NCBI RefSeq assembly: GCF_003350475.1
Contig: NZ_QQAV01000001.1
Coordinates: forward strand, 186,001 to 250,000
Origin: Pseudacidovorax intermedius
GTDB taxonomy: Bacteria > Pseudomonadota > Gammaproteobacteria > Burkholderiales > Burkholderiaceae_C
Direction: 5' to 3'
Length of the DNA: 64,000 nt
The position numbers were made by a program, and so were the translations under genes. This document shows positions 57,716-63,887 of the stretch, piece after piece. Under the pieces are notes generated by a model. The model had not been told where the DNA came from and did not search any database. It saw nothing but the letters and a program-made list of their open reading frames with translations. The first letter of the stretch is position 1, and each line of letters begins with the position of its first letter.

Positions 57716-58123
57716 TCAGCGCATCTCGGGCGGAAGCGTGCCGCCGTTGGCCGCGATGCGGGTCATCACCTGCTTGTGCAGCCAGATGTTCCATTCGGCA
57801 GAGCCCGGTTCTGCGCTGCCCGTGTAGATGAACTCGTTGGCCAGTTCCTTGCGGGCGGCCAGGCTGCTGTCGAGGCCGAGCAGCTTGAGCAGGTCCACGA
57901 TGGAGGTGCGCCAGTTCAGTTGGGCCGCGCCCGGCTTCGCATCGAGGATGGGGGCCACCTCGCCCAGCGGGATGGACGGCGGTGGCGCGGACACGGCAGG
58001 CGCCGCCGCCGGAGCCGGTGCAGCGGTCGCCGACGGTGCGGCGGGCGCGGGGGCCGGGGCGGGCGCAGCCTGTGCGCCGGGGAATATCTTGGAAAGGATG
58101 CTGCTGAAGATGCTCACGGGCAT
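57716..58123 (-). CDS. DUF3597 family protein
   Basis: 135 residues. A short N-terminal helix (SIFSSILSKIF) leads into an Ala/Pro-rich low-complexity linker (about 18-48). The DUF3597 domain follows (LNWRTSIVDLLKLLGLDSSL, ARKELANEF and WNIWLHKQVMTRIAANGG). The family is small, soluble and of unknown function; it resembles LysM-associated or peptidoglycan-related small domains only loosely. It lies 82 nt downstream of the zinc-ribbon gene on the same strand and may belong to its operon. Confidence 0.85.
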   Translation of the reverse strand: MPVSIFSSILSKIFPGAQAAPAPAPAPAAPSATAAPAPAAAPAVSAPPPSIPLGEVAPILDAKPGAAQLNWRTSIVDLLKLLGLDSSLAARKELANEFIYTGSAEPGSAEWNIWLHKQVMTRIAANGGTLPPEMR

Positions 58124-58205: not shown

Positions 58206-59330
58206 TCAGCGGCGGCCGTGTTCGTGATCTTCTGCCGGCTTCTGCGAAGAAATGTTGCTTAATTCTGTATCTGACCCCGGAGTGACGGTCGGCCGGGTCT
58301 CCGCCGCCTTGCCACAGCCGTGGCAGAAGCGCGCGAAGGCGCTCTTGCGGGTGCCGCAGCCCCCGCAGCGGTCGAACAGGCCGATGCCGCAGTGCGGGCA
58401 GAAGTCGATGGCCGCGTTCTTCAGGTCCACCGGCCGCTCGCAGCCCGGGCAGACGCCCTTGGCCAGGCGCGCCAGCGCCACGTCGTAGTCCAGGGCCTGG
58501 CGCCGTGCCGGCTCGGGCCGGGCCTCGGCCGCCTGCTGCCGCGCCAGGTAGCGCTGCAGCGCGGCGATGACCCAACGGCCGGCCAGCAGCGTCAGCACCA
58601 CGCCCACGCCGTAGCGCACATAGCCGCCATAGCTGGGCAGGTAGGGCACCAGCTCCACGAAGAAGGTGAAGAGGGCGAAGAAGACGAAGCCCCAGACGAA
58701 GGGCCACCCGTTGCCCTTGCGGTGCCGCACGAAGAGCCAGCCGGCGACGGCCAGCAGCGGCAGCGTGAGGGCGAGGCGGTAGCCGAAGACGCGCAGTTCC
58801 TGCCGCCGCTCGGCCGCCTGCAGGCGCCCGGCGGCAGCTGCTTCCAGTTCGTCCAGCTGGCGCTGGCTGCGTGCAGCGGCCTGGCGGGCGTCGAGTGCCC
58901 GCTGCTCGTGACGCTCGGCCGCCGACTGGGCCTGCCGCTGGGCGGCACGCAGTTCGTCGAGGGCGCGCGTGCGTTCGATCAGGGCCGGGTCCTGCTCCGG
59001 CCGGGCGGTGGCGCTGCGCGTGGCCAGCCAGTCGCCGAGGCTGGCCTGCGCCGAACGGGTGTTGGCCTGGGCCGTCCGGGCGCGCAGTTGCGCCTGCGCC
59101 AGGGCCTCGTCGGCCTCGGTCTGGGCCTGTTGCGCGCGGGCCAGGGCGTCGCGCTGGGCCTGTGCGGCCGGCCGGTCGATGAAGTCGTCCAGCTGCAACT
59201 GGCGCTCCACCCGCGGCAGGTCGCCCACCACGGTGCCGCCCAGGCCGATCAGGAAGCTGGCGAACACCAGCGACAGCAGCCACAGGCCGCGACGGAACCA
59301 GGCTTCGGACAGGCGGAGGGAGGTCTTCAT
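58206..59330 (-). CDS. membrane protein with coiled coil and C-terminal double zinc ribbon
   Basis: 374 residues. Membrane helix at about 13-35 (GLWLLSLVFASFLIGLGG), a long Ala/Gln/Arg coiled coil (about 50-175), three further helices (about 180-265), then a double zinc ribbon near 290-345 (CPGCERP, FCPHCGIG, CGGCGT, FCHGCGK). The layout places the coiled coil outside and the zinc ribbons in the cytosol, though topology is inferred. I do not recognise a named family. AAAGGAAA precedes ATG 59330. The palindrome GGTATCGCC...GGCGATACC at 59475-59493 lies 145 bp upstream, matching the one by the XRE regulator, so this gene may be under its control. Confidence 0.78.
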   Translation of the reverse strand: MKTSLRLSEAWFRRGLWLLSLVFASFLIGLGGTVVGDLPRVERQLQLDDFIDRPAAQAQRDALARAQQAQTEADEALAQAQLRARTAQANTRSAQASLGDWLATRSATARPEQDPALIERTRALDELRAAQRQAQSAAERHEQRALDARQAAARSQRQLDELEAAAAGRLQAAERRQELRVFGYRLALTLPLLAVAGWLFVRHRKGNGWPFVWGFVFFALFTFFVELVPYLPSYGGYVRYGVGVVLTLLAGRWVIAALQRYLARQQAAEARPEPARRQALDYDVALARLAKGVCPGCERPVDLKNAAIDFCPHCGIGLFDRCGGCGTRKSAFARFCHGCGKAAETRPTVTPGSDTELSNISSQKPAEDHEHGRR

Positions 59331-59474
59331 GCGCGATTTCCTTTCAGGCTCGGCGGCGGGATCGCGACTGGGAAATCCAGTCACCCACCCTCCGCCGGAG
59401 ATCAATCGCATCATGCCCAGGCCTCGGCCCGAGGGCGGCGCCGGCTTGTACGTTGACAAGAATTTGCGGCTTAA

Positions 59475-59493
59475 GGTATCGCCAGGCGATACC
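59475..59493. promoter_or_regulatory. 19-bp palindrome, candidate operator of the zinc-ribbon gene
   Basis: GGTATCGCC-A-GGCGATACC, perfect 9-bp arms. It is identical at 17 of 19 positions to the palindrome at 63127-63145 beside the XRE regulator gene. It lies between the PAP2 stop and the zinc-ribbon start. Confidence 0.7.
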
Positions 59494-59509
59494 GCCGCGA
59501 GGCCATCGC

Positions 59510-60163
59510 TCAGCCGGCCGCCCGCCGCGCCGGCCGCGTGCCGGCATGCAGATCGGCCCGTACGAAGGGGCGTTCGTTGCCGGCCATCCAGGCCGCAATG
59601 CGACCGATCAGCTCGTGCGTCGGCGCGCGCGTGCCGGGCTGAATCACCAGCGCGGGGAGTACCAGCGTGAGCAGCACCGGCAGCAGGCGCAGCCTGGGAT
59701 GCGGCTTGCTCCGCTGGCGCCACAGGAAGACGCCGCTGGCCGACAGCCCGAGCAGGAAGCCCGACACCACCTCCGACACCGAATGCGCGTCCAGGGCCAG
59801 ACGCGAATAGCCGATGGCCATGCCCAGGGCCCAGCCCGCGAAGGCGGCCGCCACGCGCCAGCGATGCGCGAAGCTGGAGACCGCCAGCCACAGCGCCACC
59901 GGCCAGAGGGTGGTCGACAGCGTGGTGTGGCCGCTGAAGCCGGTGAAATCGATGGCCGCGATGCCCAGCCCCCAGCCCATGAAGGCCAGCTTGCCTGCCA
60001 CCACGGTCGCGCCCGCCGTACCCACGCACAGCAGCCACAGCCACATCACCGGCCGGGTCCGCCGTGCCCAGCCCAGCCAGGCGGTGATGGCCAGCGCCAT
60101 CGGCATCATCAGGCTGCTGTCGCCCAGCCAGGTCAGTGCGTGCCAGTTCAGAAAAGCGTTCAT
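59510..60163 (-). CDS. PAP2-family membrane phosphatase
   Basis: 217 residues with about six membrane helices. SGHTTLSTTLWPV matches the PSGH motif, and SRLALDAHSVSEVVSGF supplies the SRxxxxxHxxxD motif with Asp variation (HSVSE). The KxxxxxxRP motif is degenerate, which lowers confidence in activity. The family dephosphorylates phosphatidic acid, undecaprenyl diphosphate or similar lipids. ATG 60163 is preferred over the adjacent TTG; no strong ribosome-binding site is visible. It lies 10 nt after the large fusion gene, pointing to coupled expression and a role in lipid turnover. Confidence 0.82.
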   Translation of the reverse strand: MNAFLNWHALTWLGDSSLMMPMALAITAWLGWARRTRPVMWLWLLCVGTAGATVVAGKLAFMGWGLGIAAIDFTGFSGHTTLSTTLWPVALWLAVSSFAHRWRVAAAFAGWALGMAIGYSRLALDAHSVSEVVSGFLLGLSASGVFLWRQRSKPHPRLRLLPVLLTLVLPALVIQPGTRAPTHELIGRIAAWMAGNERPFVRADLHAGTRPARRAAG

Positions 60164-60173
60164 CAATGAGGAA

Positions 60174-63029
60174 TCAAGACTGCGTCAGCAGGTTGGACAC
60201 CCGCTCGCGCAGCAGTTCGGGCTGCACCGCCGAAGCCGGCAGGGACGTGCCCACGTTCAGGCCGACGCGGCTCCAGAAGCCGCGGCGGAAGGGCCGCACC
60301 ATCGCCACCGGCTCGCCGCCGCGCAGCTCGATACGGCTGAAGTACGAGCCCCACAGGTTCGTCAGCGCCATCGGCACCACCGGCACGGCCAGGTCGTCCT
60401 CCTGCGCGCGGGCCAGGATCTTCATCACGCCGCCCTTGAAGGGCTGCAGCGTGCCGTCGCGCGTGATGCCGCCTTCGGGAAAGATGCCCAGCAGATCGCC
60501 CTCGCGCAGCACCTGGGCCGCCTCGTCGAAGGCGCGCTCGTAGGCGGCCGGGTCTTCCTTCTGCGGCGCGATCGGGATCGCCTTGGCCAGCCGGAACAGC
60601 CAGCCCAGCACCGGCACGCGGAAGATGCGGTGGTCCATCAGGAAGCGGATCGGCCGTGGGCTGGCCGCCATCAGCAGCACGGCGTCGACGAAGCTCACGT
60701 GGTTGCATACCAGCACGGCCGGGCCGTGGTCGGGGATCTGCTCGTCGCCCCGCACCTTGAAGCGGTAGACGAAGCGCGACGCCACCCAGGCGATGAAGCG
60801 CAGCAGGTATTCGGGCACCAGCAAAAAGATGTAGCCCGCCACCACCGCATTGGCGATGCCGGTGAACAGGAAGACCTGCGGAATGCTGAAGCCGGCGCCG
60901 ATCAGCGCCCCGGCGATCACCGCGCTGGCGATCATGAACAGCGCATTGAGGATGTTGTTGGCCGCGATGATCCGCGCGCGGTGCGTGGGCTGGCTGCGCA
61001 GCTGGATCAGCGCATACATCGGCACGCTGTAGAGGCCCGCGAACAGCGAGAGCAGCGCCAGGTCGGCCATCACCCGCCAATGCGCCGGCTGCGCCAGGAA
61101 GGCGCCCAGCCCCATCTCGGCCGAAGGCGGCAGCCCGCGCGAGGCGAAGTACAGGTCGATGGCGAACACGCTCATGCCGATGGCGCCCAGCGGCACCAGG
61201 CCGATCTCCACCTGGCGGCGCGACAGCGTCTCGCACAGCAGCGAGCCCGCGCCGATGCCCACCGAGAACACCACCAACAGCAGCGAGGCGACCTGCGCAT
61301 CGCCGTGCAGCACCTCCTTGGCGAAGCTCGGGAACTGCGACAGGAAGGTGGCGCCGAAGAACCACATCCACGAAATGCCCAGCAGCGAGCGGAACACCAC
61401 CGTGTTGCCATGCGCCAGCCTGAGATTGCGCCAGGTCTCGGACACCGGGTTCCAGTTGACAGCCAGGGTCGGGTCGGTGGCCGGCGCCGCGGGCACGGCC
61501 TGCGCCGTCAGCCGACCGATCACGGCCACTGCCACACAGGCCGCCGCCACGGTGCCGTGGCCGATGCCCGGCAGCGCCACCAGCAGACCGCCCGCCACCT
61601 GGCCCAGCAGGATGGCGACGAAGGTGCCCATTTCCACCATGCCGTTGCCGCCGGTGAGTTCGTGCGCGTCGAGCGCCTGCGGCAGGTAGGCGAACTTGAC
61701 CGGGCCGAACAGCGTGGAATGCAGGCCCATCAGGAAGACGCAGCCCAGCAGCACCGGCACGTTGGCGGCCATGAAGCCCCAGCCGGCCAGCGCCATGATG
61801 GCGATCTCCAGCGTCTTGACCAGCCGGATGATGCGGGCCTTGTCGTACTTGTCGGTGAGCTGCCCCGCAGTGGCCGAGAACAGCAGGAAGGGCAGGATGA
61901 ACAGCGCGCCGATCGCCAGGCCCGCCAGCGAGGGCGGCAGCCACGCCACCTGCAGCTGGTAGGTCACCATCACCGTGAAGGCGAACTTGAACAGGTTGTC
62001 GTTGGCGGCCCCGGCGAACTGCGTCCAGAAGAAGGGCGCGAAGCGGCGCTGGCGCAGCAGGGCGAACTGGTTGGCGTGCGCCGGAGAAGCGGCGGCCGGT
62101 GGGGCGTCGGTGCGCATGGTCTGGTCCTGAAGTCCGGCCCGCGCCCATGGCCGATGGGCACGTGGGGTACCGGCGCCCGCCGCATTCTGCCGCAGCGGTG
62201 CCCGCCCCACGGCGGCCAGCACGGGCAGTGCCGCCAGCGCCGCCGCCAAGTGCTTGAGGCTGTGGCCCGACACGGTCTGCCCGGTGGCCTCGAACAGGGC
62301 GAAGTCATTCATCTCCAGCAGCTTGGCGAGCAGGTAGGCCGCCAGCACGGCACCGACGCGCAGCCCCAGTGCGCCGGGCACCTTGGGGCGGCGCCAGGCC
62401 CAGACGATGAAGCCGATGCCCCCGTACTGCACCACGGCCCAGGGCAGCACGTTGCCGTCCACCTGGGGCCACGCCGCCGACACCGTTCCCAGCAGCAGCG
62501 CACCCCACAGCACGGGCCGCACCGCCGCCAGCGTCAACCGCTCGGCCACGACCAACGCCCAGGCCCCCGCGAAGGCGACCGCCATGCCCAGCCGGTCGCC
62601 CGCCAGCCGGCCGGCATCGGGCGCCCAGTGGTACCACGCAGAGCCGAGCGACGTCAGCAGCAGGCCGGCGAAGAACACCTGCGCCGCACGGCGCGTGGCC
62701 GCCGGCAAAGTTCGCGCTCGCAGTCGCGCCAGGCCCCACAGGCCGGCCAGGGCGAAAGGCAGGTTGCTCAGCACGTCGAAGGCGTTGGGGATGCCCCAGC
62801 GTGGTCGCACGTCGGCGAAGGGCGCGGCCACGGCCGGTGCATGTGCCTGCAGGTGGCCATGCGCATCCAGGGGCAGGCCGAGCGCCGCCAGCAAGGCCGG
62901 CCCGGCCAGCCAGGTGGCGAGCCAGAGCAGCAGCAGGCCGGCCAGCGCCAGCCCGAGGCCGCGTGGCAGAAGGGCGGCCTCGGTGTTGGTAGACGCGGGG
63001 TCGGCAGCGGAGGCGGTGGATGAAGACAT
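60174..63029 (-). CDS. CREST-type hydrolase fused to LplT-like transporter and PlsC-like acyltransferase
   Basis: 951 residues from ATG 63029, open without a stop. About 1-280: a multi-helix CREST (alkaline ceramidase-like) domain with SAWYH at 130-134, Asp 11 residues after the His, and HSLKH at 256-260, the S-x3-H-x10-D...H-x3-H set of ACER3. About 318-735: twelve-helix major-facilitator domain close to LplT (FFWTQFAGAANDNLFKFAF). About 770-945: PlsC-type acyltransferase with NHVSFVD at 776-782 and FPEGGIT near 850. Likely role: cleave a lipid amide or ester, flip the lyso-lipid inward and re-acylate it. An upstream TTG at 63101 would include a signal-like stretch. An internal ATG at 62117, with AGGA upstream, could yield the transporter-acyltransferase alone. 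The fused state needs confirmation. Confidence 0.77.
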   Translation of the reverse strand: MSSSTASAADPASTNTEAALLPRGLGLALAGLLLLWLATWLAGPALLAALGLPLDAHGHLQAHAPAVAAPFADVRPRWGIPNAFDVLSNLPFALAGLWGLARLRARTLPAATRRAAQVFFAGLLLTSLGSAWYHWAPDAGRLAGDRLGMAVAFAGAWALVVAERLTLAAVRPVLWGALLLGTVSAAWPQVDGNVLPWAVVQYGGIGFIVWAWRRPKVPGALGLRVGAVLAAYLLAKLLEMNDFALFEATGQTVSGHSLKHLAAALAALPVLAAVGRAPLRQNAAGAGTPRAHRPWARAGLQDQTMRTDAPPAAASPAHANQFALLRQRRFAPFFWTQFAGAANDNLFKFAFTVMVTYQLQVAWLPPSLAGLAIGALFILPFLLFSATAGQLTDKYDKARIIRLVKTLEIAIMALAGWGFMAANVPVLLGCVFLMGLHSTLFGPVKFAYLPQALDAHELTGGNGMVEMGTFVAILLGQVAGGLLVALPGIGHGTVAAACVAVAVIGRLTAQAVPAAPATDPTLAVNWNPVSETWRNLRLAHGNTVVFRSLLGISWMWFFGATFLSQFPSFAKEVLHGDAQVASLLLVVFSVGIGAGSLLCETLSRRQVEIGLVPLGAIGMSVFAIDLYFASRGLPPSAEMGLGAFLAQPAHWRVMADLALLSLFAGLYSVPMYALIQLRSQPTHRARIIAANNILNALFMIASAVIAGALIGAGFSIPQVFLFTGIANAVVAGYIFLLVPEYLLRFIAWVASRFVYRFKVRGDEQIPDHGPAVLVCNHVSFVDAVLLMAASPRPIRFLMDHRIFRVPVLGWLFRLAKAIPIAPQKEDPAAYERAFDEAAQVLREGDLLGIFPEGGITRDGTLQPFKGGVMKILARAQEDDLAVPVVPMALTNLWGSYFSRIELRGGEPVAMVRPFRRGFWSRVGLNVGTSLPASAVQPELLRERVSNLLTQS

Positions 63030-63126
63030 GGCCAGCAGGAGGACTAGAAGAAGGTGGCGCAGTCTCCCGGCCCACCCTCGCCGCCGAGGCTCGTATTCCA
63101 ATACAGTGGCAGACAAAACCACCTCA

Positions 63127-63145
63127 GGTATCGCCTGCCGATACC
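63127..63145. promoter_or_regulatory. 19-bp palindrome, candidate operator of the XRE regulator and the fusion gene
   Basis: GGTATCG-CCTGC-CGATACC, perfect 7-bp arms. It ends 10 bp before the regulator's GTG and lies about 100 bp upstream of the divergent fusion gene. A protein bound here could block both. Near-copy of the site at 59475-59493. Confidence 0.75.
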
Positions 63146-63155
63146 ATGTTGACCC

Positions 63156-63887
63156 GTGAGCACCACCCAGGACCTCGTCCACGCCATCAAGCGCGAACTC
63201 AAGGCGGCGCAGATGACCTACGCCGATCTGGCCGCGGCCCTCGGTCTGGCCGAATCCAGCGTCAAGCGCATGCTGGCCCGGGGCGACATGCCGCTGGCGC
63301 GCATCGACGCCATCTGCCGCGCCCTGCGCATCGACTTCGCGGACCTGGCGCGGCGCGTCGCCGACAGCCAGCCGCTGCTGCGCGAACTGACGCAGGAGCA
63401 GGAGCAGGCCGTGGTGCGCGACCGCAAGCTGCTGCTGGTGGCCATCAACGTGCTGAGCCAGTGGACGCTGGAGCAGATCGTCGGCACCTATCGGATCACC
63501 GAGGCCGAATGCATCGGCTACCTGGCGCAGCTGGACCGCATCGGCATCATCGAGTTACGGCCGCTCAACCGCTACCGGCTCAAGGTGGCCAAGACCTTCC
63601 GCTGGCGGCCGCACGGGCCGGTGATGCAGTTCTTCCGCGAAGAGGTGGTGCTGGACTATTACGCAGGCGGCTTCGACGGCCCGGCCGAGGGCCTGCTGCT
63701 GGTGCACGGCTCCATCTCGCGGGCACTGGCGCCGGCCTTCCTGGAGCGGCTGCAGCGCGTGGCGCAGGACTTCGCCCAGCAGCACCAGACCGACCAGAAG
63801 CTGCCCGCCGGCGAGCTGGAGGGCTACACCCTGCTGCTGGCGATGCGCGAATGGGAATTCGGCCAGTTCACCCAGCTTCGGCGCTGA
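63156..63887 (+). CDS. XRE-type helix-turn-helix transcriptional regulator
   Basis: 243 residues. The HTH is at about 18-62 (MTYADLAAALGLAESSVKRM, then MPLARIDAICRALRIDFADL), a Cro/CI-type fold. The remaining 180 residues are mixed alpha/beta without a recognised ligand domain (WTLEQIVGTYRITEAE, KTFRWRPHGPVMQFF). The start is GTG at 63156, 10 nt after a palindrome. No Shine-Dalgarno fits there, so the mRNA may be leaderless and the operator may overlap the promoter, as in autoregulated repressors. The same palindrome upstream of the zinc-ribbon gene suggests it controls the whole 58-63 kb cassette. Confidence 0.88.
   Translation: MSTTQDLVHAIKRELKAAQMTYADLAAALGLAESSVKRMLARGDMPLARIDAICRALRIDFADLARRVADSQPLLRELTQEQEQAVVRDRKLLLVAINVLSQWTLEQIVGTYRITEAECIGYLAQLDRIGIIELRPLNRYRLKVAKTFRWRPHGPVMQFFREEVVLDYYAGGFDGPAEGLLLVHGSISRALAPAFLERLQRVAQDFAQQHQTDQKLPAGELEGYTLLLAMREWEFGQFTQLRR

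Follow-up and report, generated by a model that had tools for sequence, protein, structure and literature searches.

The stretch of DNA analysed here (the window; 64,000 nucleotides) comes from Pseudacidovorax intermedius (RefSeq assembly GCF_003350475.1, contig NZ_QQAV01000001.1, positions 186,001 to 250,000 of the forward strand) and carries towards its end a gene for an XRE-family regulator, a divergent group of genes for membrane proteins, and two near-identical 19-bp palindromes, O1 and O3, accompanied by a degenerate copy, O2. Comparison with relatives makes it very probable, as far as sequences can tell, that these sites are operators of a conserved, autoregulated regulon of the XRE type devoted to membrane maintenance and repair. 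The regulator (63156..63887, + strand; 243 amino acids) combines a Cro/C1-type helix-turn-helix (HTH) domain of the HTH_26 family with ~170 residues that have no Pfam match or PDB counterpart. Transcribed divergently from it is the gene for a fused membrane protein (60174..63029, − strand, with the start codon at 63029 being a guess), a single open frame without a stop between its ceramidase-like (weakly CREST-like) part, an LplT-like MFS part (from ~62117), and a PlsC-like acyltransferase part. Further genes on the − strand encode a PAP2-superfamily phosphatase (59510..60166), which is a frequent, not a constant, member of such loci; a membrane/coiled-coil protein with a C-terminal double zinc ribbon (58206..59330), encoded in relatives by the last gene of an operon that starts with yiaAB; and a DUF3597 protein (57716..58123), often next downstream in relatives and an uncertain member of the regulon.

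In the fused protein, the Pfam domains Acyltransferase and MFS_1 both score above their cut-offs, and residues 319 to 901 match positions 2 to 575 (of 1140) of the NCBIfam model for acyl-[ACP]-phospholipid O-acyltransferase; the NCBIfam LplT and acyltransferase models match as well, below their equivalog cut-offs. This family similarity suggests that LplT-PlsC takes part in lysophospholipid recycling. The AMP-binding (acyl-ACP ligase) domain gave no match in the fused protein and is present in a homologous locus from elsewhere in the class (L289). The ceramidase-like part of the window protein scores below the Pfam Ceramidase cut-off (E value of 0.0037, 17.1 bits versus 32.5), and its counterpart in one relative reaches 12.5 bits. 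An earlier note on this DNA had recognized the XRE regulator, the LplT- and PlsC-like parts, the PAP2 phosphatase, and the double zinc ribbon, all of which stand; its CREST/ceramidase assignment is weak. That part was found in 12 of the 15 genomes of the genus, fused to LplT-PlsC in 3 of them and as a separate gene in 9; in the remaining 3, the gene was not found, and LplT-PlsC faces the XRE gene directly. With the fusion confined to 3 of those 12 genomes, PAP2 and YiaAB variable, and the gene order differing between genera, the four window genes were rejected as a fixed set.

The palindromes have the form GGTATCG-N5-CGATACC; mismatches to it are counted over the 14 arm positions unless 12 positions are specified. 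None of the sites is assigned to a strand. O1, the candidate operator GGTATCGCCTGCCGATACC at 63127..63145, lies 10 bp 5' of the XRE start codon. O3, the perfect palindrome GGTATCGCCAGGCGATACC at 59475..59493, is located between the PAP2 and zinc-ribbon genes, and 17 of the 19 positions are identical in the two. When up to 3 mismatches are allowed, the window contains four strand-matches, all at O1 and O3; shuffled sequences averaged 0.17 and never exceeded 2. In the whole 5.98-Mb genome, the pattern is found at exactly two places, O1 and O3, and remains limited to these two when one mismatch is tolerated; the exact backwards pattern is absent. The degenerate copy O2 (63087..63105) has 5 of 14 mismatches and precedes O1 by exactly 40 bp; it is recognizable only because relatives hold a better site at that spacing, and it may be non-functional in this strain. 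The coordinates and the agreement of the two palindromes given in the earlier note were thus reproduced, and a wide scatter of the motif over unrelated places, which the note had said would count against it, is not seen. Its statement that the window holds no third copy is true for sites with up to 3 mismatches and has to be amended for O2, and its placement of the sites can be made more precise: O3 lies 16 bp past the PAP2 stop codon and ~145 bp before the zinc-ribbon start.

The XRE gene is present in all 15 genomes of the genus, and in all of them O1 is found with at most 3 mismatches 3 to 10 bp before the XRE start. A wider set of named loci comprised the best 80 of 479 confirmed ones, of which 12 repeat genus genomes, 50 are titled Variovorax, and 18 come from others; the closest XRE orthologues among these best 80 are those of Pseudacidovorax, with up to 98% identity (P. 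intermedius NS331). In 72 of the 80 loci, the top-scoring site among the 80 bp preceding the XRE gene, sometimes O2, has at most 3 mismatches (12/12 in the genus, 47/50 in Variovorax, 13/18 in the others), as compared to ∼1% of 1516 random windows of the same loci. Without the 12 repeated genus loci, the count is 60 of 68. O2, with up to 4 mismatches, is found exactly 40 bp upstream of O1 in 64 loci, with 12 loci lacking O2 and 4 lacking O1, and wherever spacings were counted, 40 bp came out as the best one and no other did. It is well preserved in Variovorax (50/50) and in most of the window's genus (10/12).

A draw from the family, with approximately one genome per genus, matters more as evidence than these 80 loci. 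Among the 67 full-length XRE loci from outside the genus, a site with at most 2 mismatches over 12 positions was found in 34 of the 44 that have LplT-PlsC in the stretch read and in 9 of the 23 that do not, against 0.4% of 1738 control windows. The right arm of O1 reads as a −10 box in some relatives, such as genome G012, where TATACC follows GTGACA by 18 bases (identified by eye). An operator arm that doubles as a −10 box, followed within a few bases by the start codon, suggests autorepression.

In many relatives, LplT-PlsC or PAP2 is followed by yiaAB and the genes for a 175-aa protein, a DUF2145 protein, and the zinc-ribbon protein. Among the 54 named loci that bear YiaAB, a site with at most 3 mismatches is found in 40, in every case 91 to 110 bp before the extrapolated YiaAB start; of the other 14, 11 have a site with 4 mismatches at 97 to 100 bp, and the last 3 have 5, 6, and 7 mismatches. 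In 1032 control windows, the corresponding fractions were ∼1% for up to 3 mismatches and ∼6% for up to 4. The yiaAB operon is displaced by 5.5 kb from LplT-PlsC in Acidovorax sp. Leaf191 and by 4.5 kb in Rhodoferax sp. OV413, and the whole-genome scans located the second site 113 and 109 bp, respectively, before yiaAB. Because the site stays with the displaced operon, the most fitting reading of O3 is that it serves the yiaAB-DUF2145-zinc-ribbon unit. The Pseudacidovorax lineage of the window has lost the genes from yiaAB to DUF2145, and O3 now faces the zinc-ribbon gene, which accounts for the arrangement seen in the earlier note. Both O1 and O3 are conserved at corresponding positions in relatives, though some genomes of the genus have a degenerate O3 or lack it.

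A profile of 55 XRE proteins, searched against 229 genomes of the class at an E value of ≤1e-20, matched 32 genomes, 3 of them from the same family. Of the 33 places, 27 were used (3 of the same family and 3 without a locus were left out; the L280 protein covers only part of the profile), and their XRE proteins are 31 to 42% identical to the window protein. An exact GTAT-N9-ATAC is found within 110 bp before the XRE gene in 16 of these 27 loci and in 9 of 913 control windows; other arm spacings, from 3 to 17, yield only 0 to 2. At least one gene for LplT/PlsC/Aas, PspA/IM30, YiaAB, DUF2145, or a ceramidase-like protein lies within ∼7 kb (less at contig ends) in 17 of the 27 loci: LplT/PlsC/Aas in 10, PspA/IM30 in 6, DUF2145 in 4, YiaAB in 3, and the ceramidase-like protein in 1. 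Some of the neighbor queries were taken from L288, L289, L304, and L305, which match by construction; weak hits in L292, L308, and L311 were not counted. Around the class XRE genes, the general form RGTAT-N9-ATACY is found at 19 sites in 326 kb; in 15-kb stretches picked arbitrarily from these genomes (14 of 20 used), neither such neighbor genes nor that motif occurred. The six PspA/IM30 loci include four with a DUF2157-like protein, matched below the Pfam cut-off, and two with YiaAB. In L289, L294, L296, and L303, the PspA/IM30 gene is followed by one for a DUF2157-like membrane protein and is transcribed divergently from XRE, and in L288, L291, L299, and L309, a gene for a small protein (116 aa in L288) stands before DUF2145 and is itself preceded by the palindrome.

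These observations can be accommodated in a simple scheme. The XRE dimer would bind GGTATCG-N5-CGATACC, in its general form RGTAT-N9-ATACY, and would repress its own gene through O1, a few bases short of the start codon and on or beside the −10 region. The divergent ceramidase-like/LplT/PlsC unit, with PAP2 where included, would be controlled via O1 and, in loci that have it, O2, at a distance of about four helical turns. The second unit (yiaAB, the hypothetical gene, DUF2145, and the zinc ribbon; in the window, the zinc-ribbon gene alone) would be controlled through O3. A membrane signal reaching the C-terminal domain would change binding, to which the genes would respond, and the regulon would serve membrane upkeep through the return and re-acylation of lysophospholipids and the handling of membrane damage. 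The proposal of the earlier note that one repressor governs four lipid or membrane genes thus gains shared, conserved sites, with repression being likely at the XRE gene and conjectural at the other targets, as only the site over the regulator's own promoter points to it. The membership likewise changes: the regulon as such is supported, neither PAP2 nor the fusion is a constant part of it, the zinc-ribbon gene is the last of a partly lost operon, and the regulon extends further than the four genes.

The same sites would also fit a regulator that represses its own gene and, similarly to CI of phage lambda, activates its targets from O2, and perhaps from O3, at the −35 position of promoters with poor −35 boxes. 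A TAAATT box that is conserved in Variovorax on the side of the CREST gene places O2 at about −49 to −31, with the center at approximately −40, and O1 overlaps the likely XRE promoter instead (both identified by eye). Activators and repressors alike could act from such a position of O2, and repression is just as feasible from a site over −35; in the window segment 59300 to 63200, no sigma-70 promoter was picked up by the consensus scan, and neither promoter nor terminator scans yielded anything above shuffled sequences. Activation of the targets is a real but doubtful possibility.

It is improbable that the palindromes are bound by a different, unlinked factor, with the XRE gene a mere neighbor. 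More than one XRE match was seen in 10 of 65 family genomes (some of them pieces of one gene), and a paralogue could bind there. However, the site stays with the XRE gene when the neighbors change: paralogues and distant homologues with other neighbors are often preceded by the palindrome, as in 9 of the 20 family loci that are more distant and have no LplT-PlsC in the stretch and in the 16 of 27 class homologues mentioned above. Conversely, 7 genomes that have LplT-PlsC and no XRE gene show no site with up to 2 mismatches in the 1.5 kb upstream; the best site has 3 mismatches in 3 of the 7. This set came from 20 of 55 XRE-less genomes searched, with 7 near-full LplT-PlsC loci read and 2 stronger partial matches left out. 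One of the 3 sites with 3 mismatches, AGCATCGTTTGGCGATGCC at −223 from LplT-PlsC in L204, may be a relic operator. A clade of eight loci (L177 to L181, L183, L188, and L189) with XRE proteins 57 to 65% identical adds a case of co-variation. There, the half-site TATC has changed to TAGC on both arms (TAGC/GCTA) in four of the eight loci, and genome G114 contains exactly two perfect TAGC sites, 1.3 kb apart, one before XRE and the other 82 bp before the matched YiaAB start. In this one genome, the same change has occurred at two operators, as a single recognizing protein would require.

Still less probable is a role of the palindromes as RNA hairpins, either terminators or attenuators. The stretch around O3, which lies just past the PAP2 stop codon, folds with −21.1 kcal/mol (z of −2.5) and that around O1 with −10.9 (z of −2.5) on the + strand and −12.7 (z of −1.3) on the − strand. 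However, there is no T-run, the terminator scan reports neither site, and O1 precedes a start codon. In many relatives, the O1 arms are not fully complementary even though their sequence is kept, and the distance from O3 to YiaAB is preserved also at loci lacking an adjacent LplT-PlsC or PAP2. Finally, two chance palindromes, conceivable as long as the case drew on one window, are refuted by conservation in the genus, the named loci, the family, the class, and the YiaAB loci.

Several observations weigh against the proposed regulon and belong in the balance. The 80 named loci are not independent, 50 of them being from Variovorax and 12 repeating genus genomes, and O2 is rare beyond these two groups (4/18). 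In the family draw, 9 partial XRE matches were left out, 10 of the 44 LplT-PlsC loci fall short of the threshold (4 have 5 to 6 mismatches), and 5 to 6 mismatches are also seen at 3 close XRE orthologues whose stretch read contains no LplT-PlsC. O3 is uneven within the genus: it has at most 1 mismatch in 5 of the 15 genomes, 3 mismatches in 1, and 4 to 5, with AGTATCT-type arms, in 6, and it was not found in genus genomes G003, G004, and G006. In the other 4 loci of the TAGC clade, the change affects one arm or is mixed, and the TAGC pattern is unspecific at one mismatch (20 places in 10 genomes, with 75 for the backwards control). With one mismatch, the original motif is found in the 15 genus genomes at 16 places, 11 of them at the locus and 5 elsewhere (backwards control, 4), and in 12 genomes reached via other loci at 23 places, 13 of them at the regulon and 10 elsewhere (backwards control, 5). 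A few further targets may thus exist beyond the locus; two of those 10 places were read (L283 and L284) and had no regulon genes around them.

The regulator itself belongs to the XRE/Cro-C1 factors by its lambda-repressor-like HTH domain; its binding to palindromic operators is predicted from the conservation of the site and its co-variation with the gene. It matches HTH_26 (PF13443) with an E value of 1.5e-11 and 44.8 bits, above the cut-off of 22, and all 18 of its Pfam matches up to an E value of 1 fall within residues 6 to 70; NCBIfam contains no match at an E value of ≤0.01. The 55 family members match 87 Pfam families, mainly HTH domains among the 25 listed. An AlphaFold model built from 55 diverse sequences (predicted local distance difference test [pLDDT] score of 89.0; predicted template modeling [pTM] score of 0.71) consists of the HTH and a C-terminal region of helices and strands; 18 close sequences had given a poor model (pLDDT of 65.8). 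In a Foldseek comparison with the PDB, HTH proteins ranked first (ClgR, C.Esp1396I, and C.BclI, with 434 Cro lower), none of them at an E value of ≤0.001. A profile search of solved structures gave seven matches up to an E value of 1, the best at 0.0029, all within the first 82 positions.

In Escherichia coli, the LplT-Aas system recycles lysophospholipids. The window protein resembles it in joining an LplT-like MFS transporter to a PlsC-like acyltransferase but differs in the missing AMP-binding match, the scores below the equivalog cut-offs, the ceramidase-like fusion, and the adjoining XRE gene and conserved sites. Controller proteins of restriction-modification systems and the repressors of phages lambda and 434 regulate their own synthesis through paired palindromic sites. 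In the Foldseek results, C.Esp1396I and these repressors share the HTH fold with the window XRE protein, which has ∼170 additional residues and chromosomal membrane genes as its putative targets. ClgR, which also contains a Cro-like HTH, heads the Foldseek ranking (E value of 0.026, covering the HTH only); it does not match the C-terminal part. Phage shock protein (PSP) systems, including ClgR-PspA-PspM of Actinobacteria (PMC11237479, in excerpt), have a parallel in the six class loci, of 27, where XRE relatives stand beside PspA/IM30. The P. intermedius genome has no match to PspA/IM30 (PF04012), for which 9 of 14 control genomes are positive; hence, this local version does not count among the PSP systems, even though relatives join the two.

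In the excerpted main text of that PSP survey, YiaA, acyltransferase, MFS, and DUF2145 are not mentioned, nor are Xre or phospholipid in the excerpted text of a survey of 33 proteobacterial regulons (PMC5343134); an LplT transporter is mentioned once in the available portion of PMC9561280, as a protein raised by PacT. The earlier note knew of no described system with this combination, and the literature searched, whose scope excluded most subscription journals and all regulon databases, likewise contained no description of it, so a membrane-maintenance regulon of the XRE type is probably undescribed. It would supply a probable regulator, site, and common regulon for several little-known families (YiaAB, DUF2145, the ceramidase-like protein, and the zinc-ribbon membrane protein) and link these with lysophospholipid repair and, among relatives, with PspA. 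Within the window's genus, the motif is specific enough to indicate targets genome-wide, so that a single purified protein and two short DNA probes would suffice for a direct test of the membrane-repair signal. A bolder extension, to which we give somewhat less than an even chance, is a class-wide envelope-maintenance regulon, in which an XRE protein with a new C-terminal sensor of membrane damage (e.g., of lysophospholipid, directly) would act via RGTAT-N9-ATACY on its own gene and, depending on the lineage, on those for LplT/PlsC/Aas, PspA/IM30, YiaAB, DUF2145, and ceramidase-like/zinc-ribbon proteins. It could replace the PspF-type control where PSP is absent.

A further set of XRE paralogues, ∼46 to 50% identical and without LplT-PlsC in the stretch read (L193, L194, L196, and L198), also have palindromes upstream, such as TGTAGCGCCAGGCGCTACC, and perhaps represent a second regulon.

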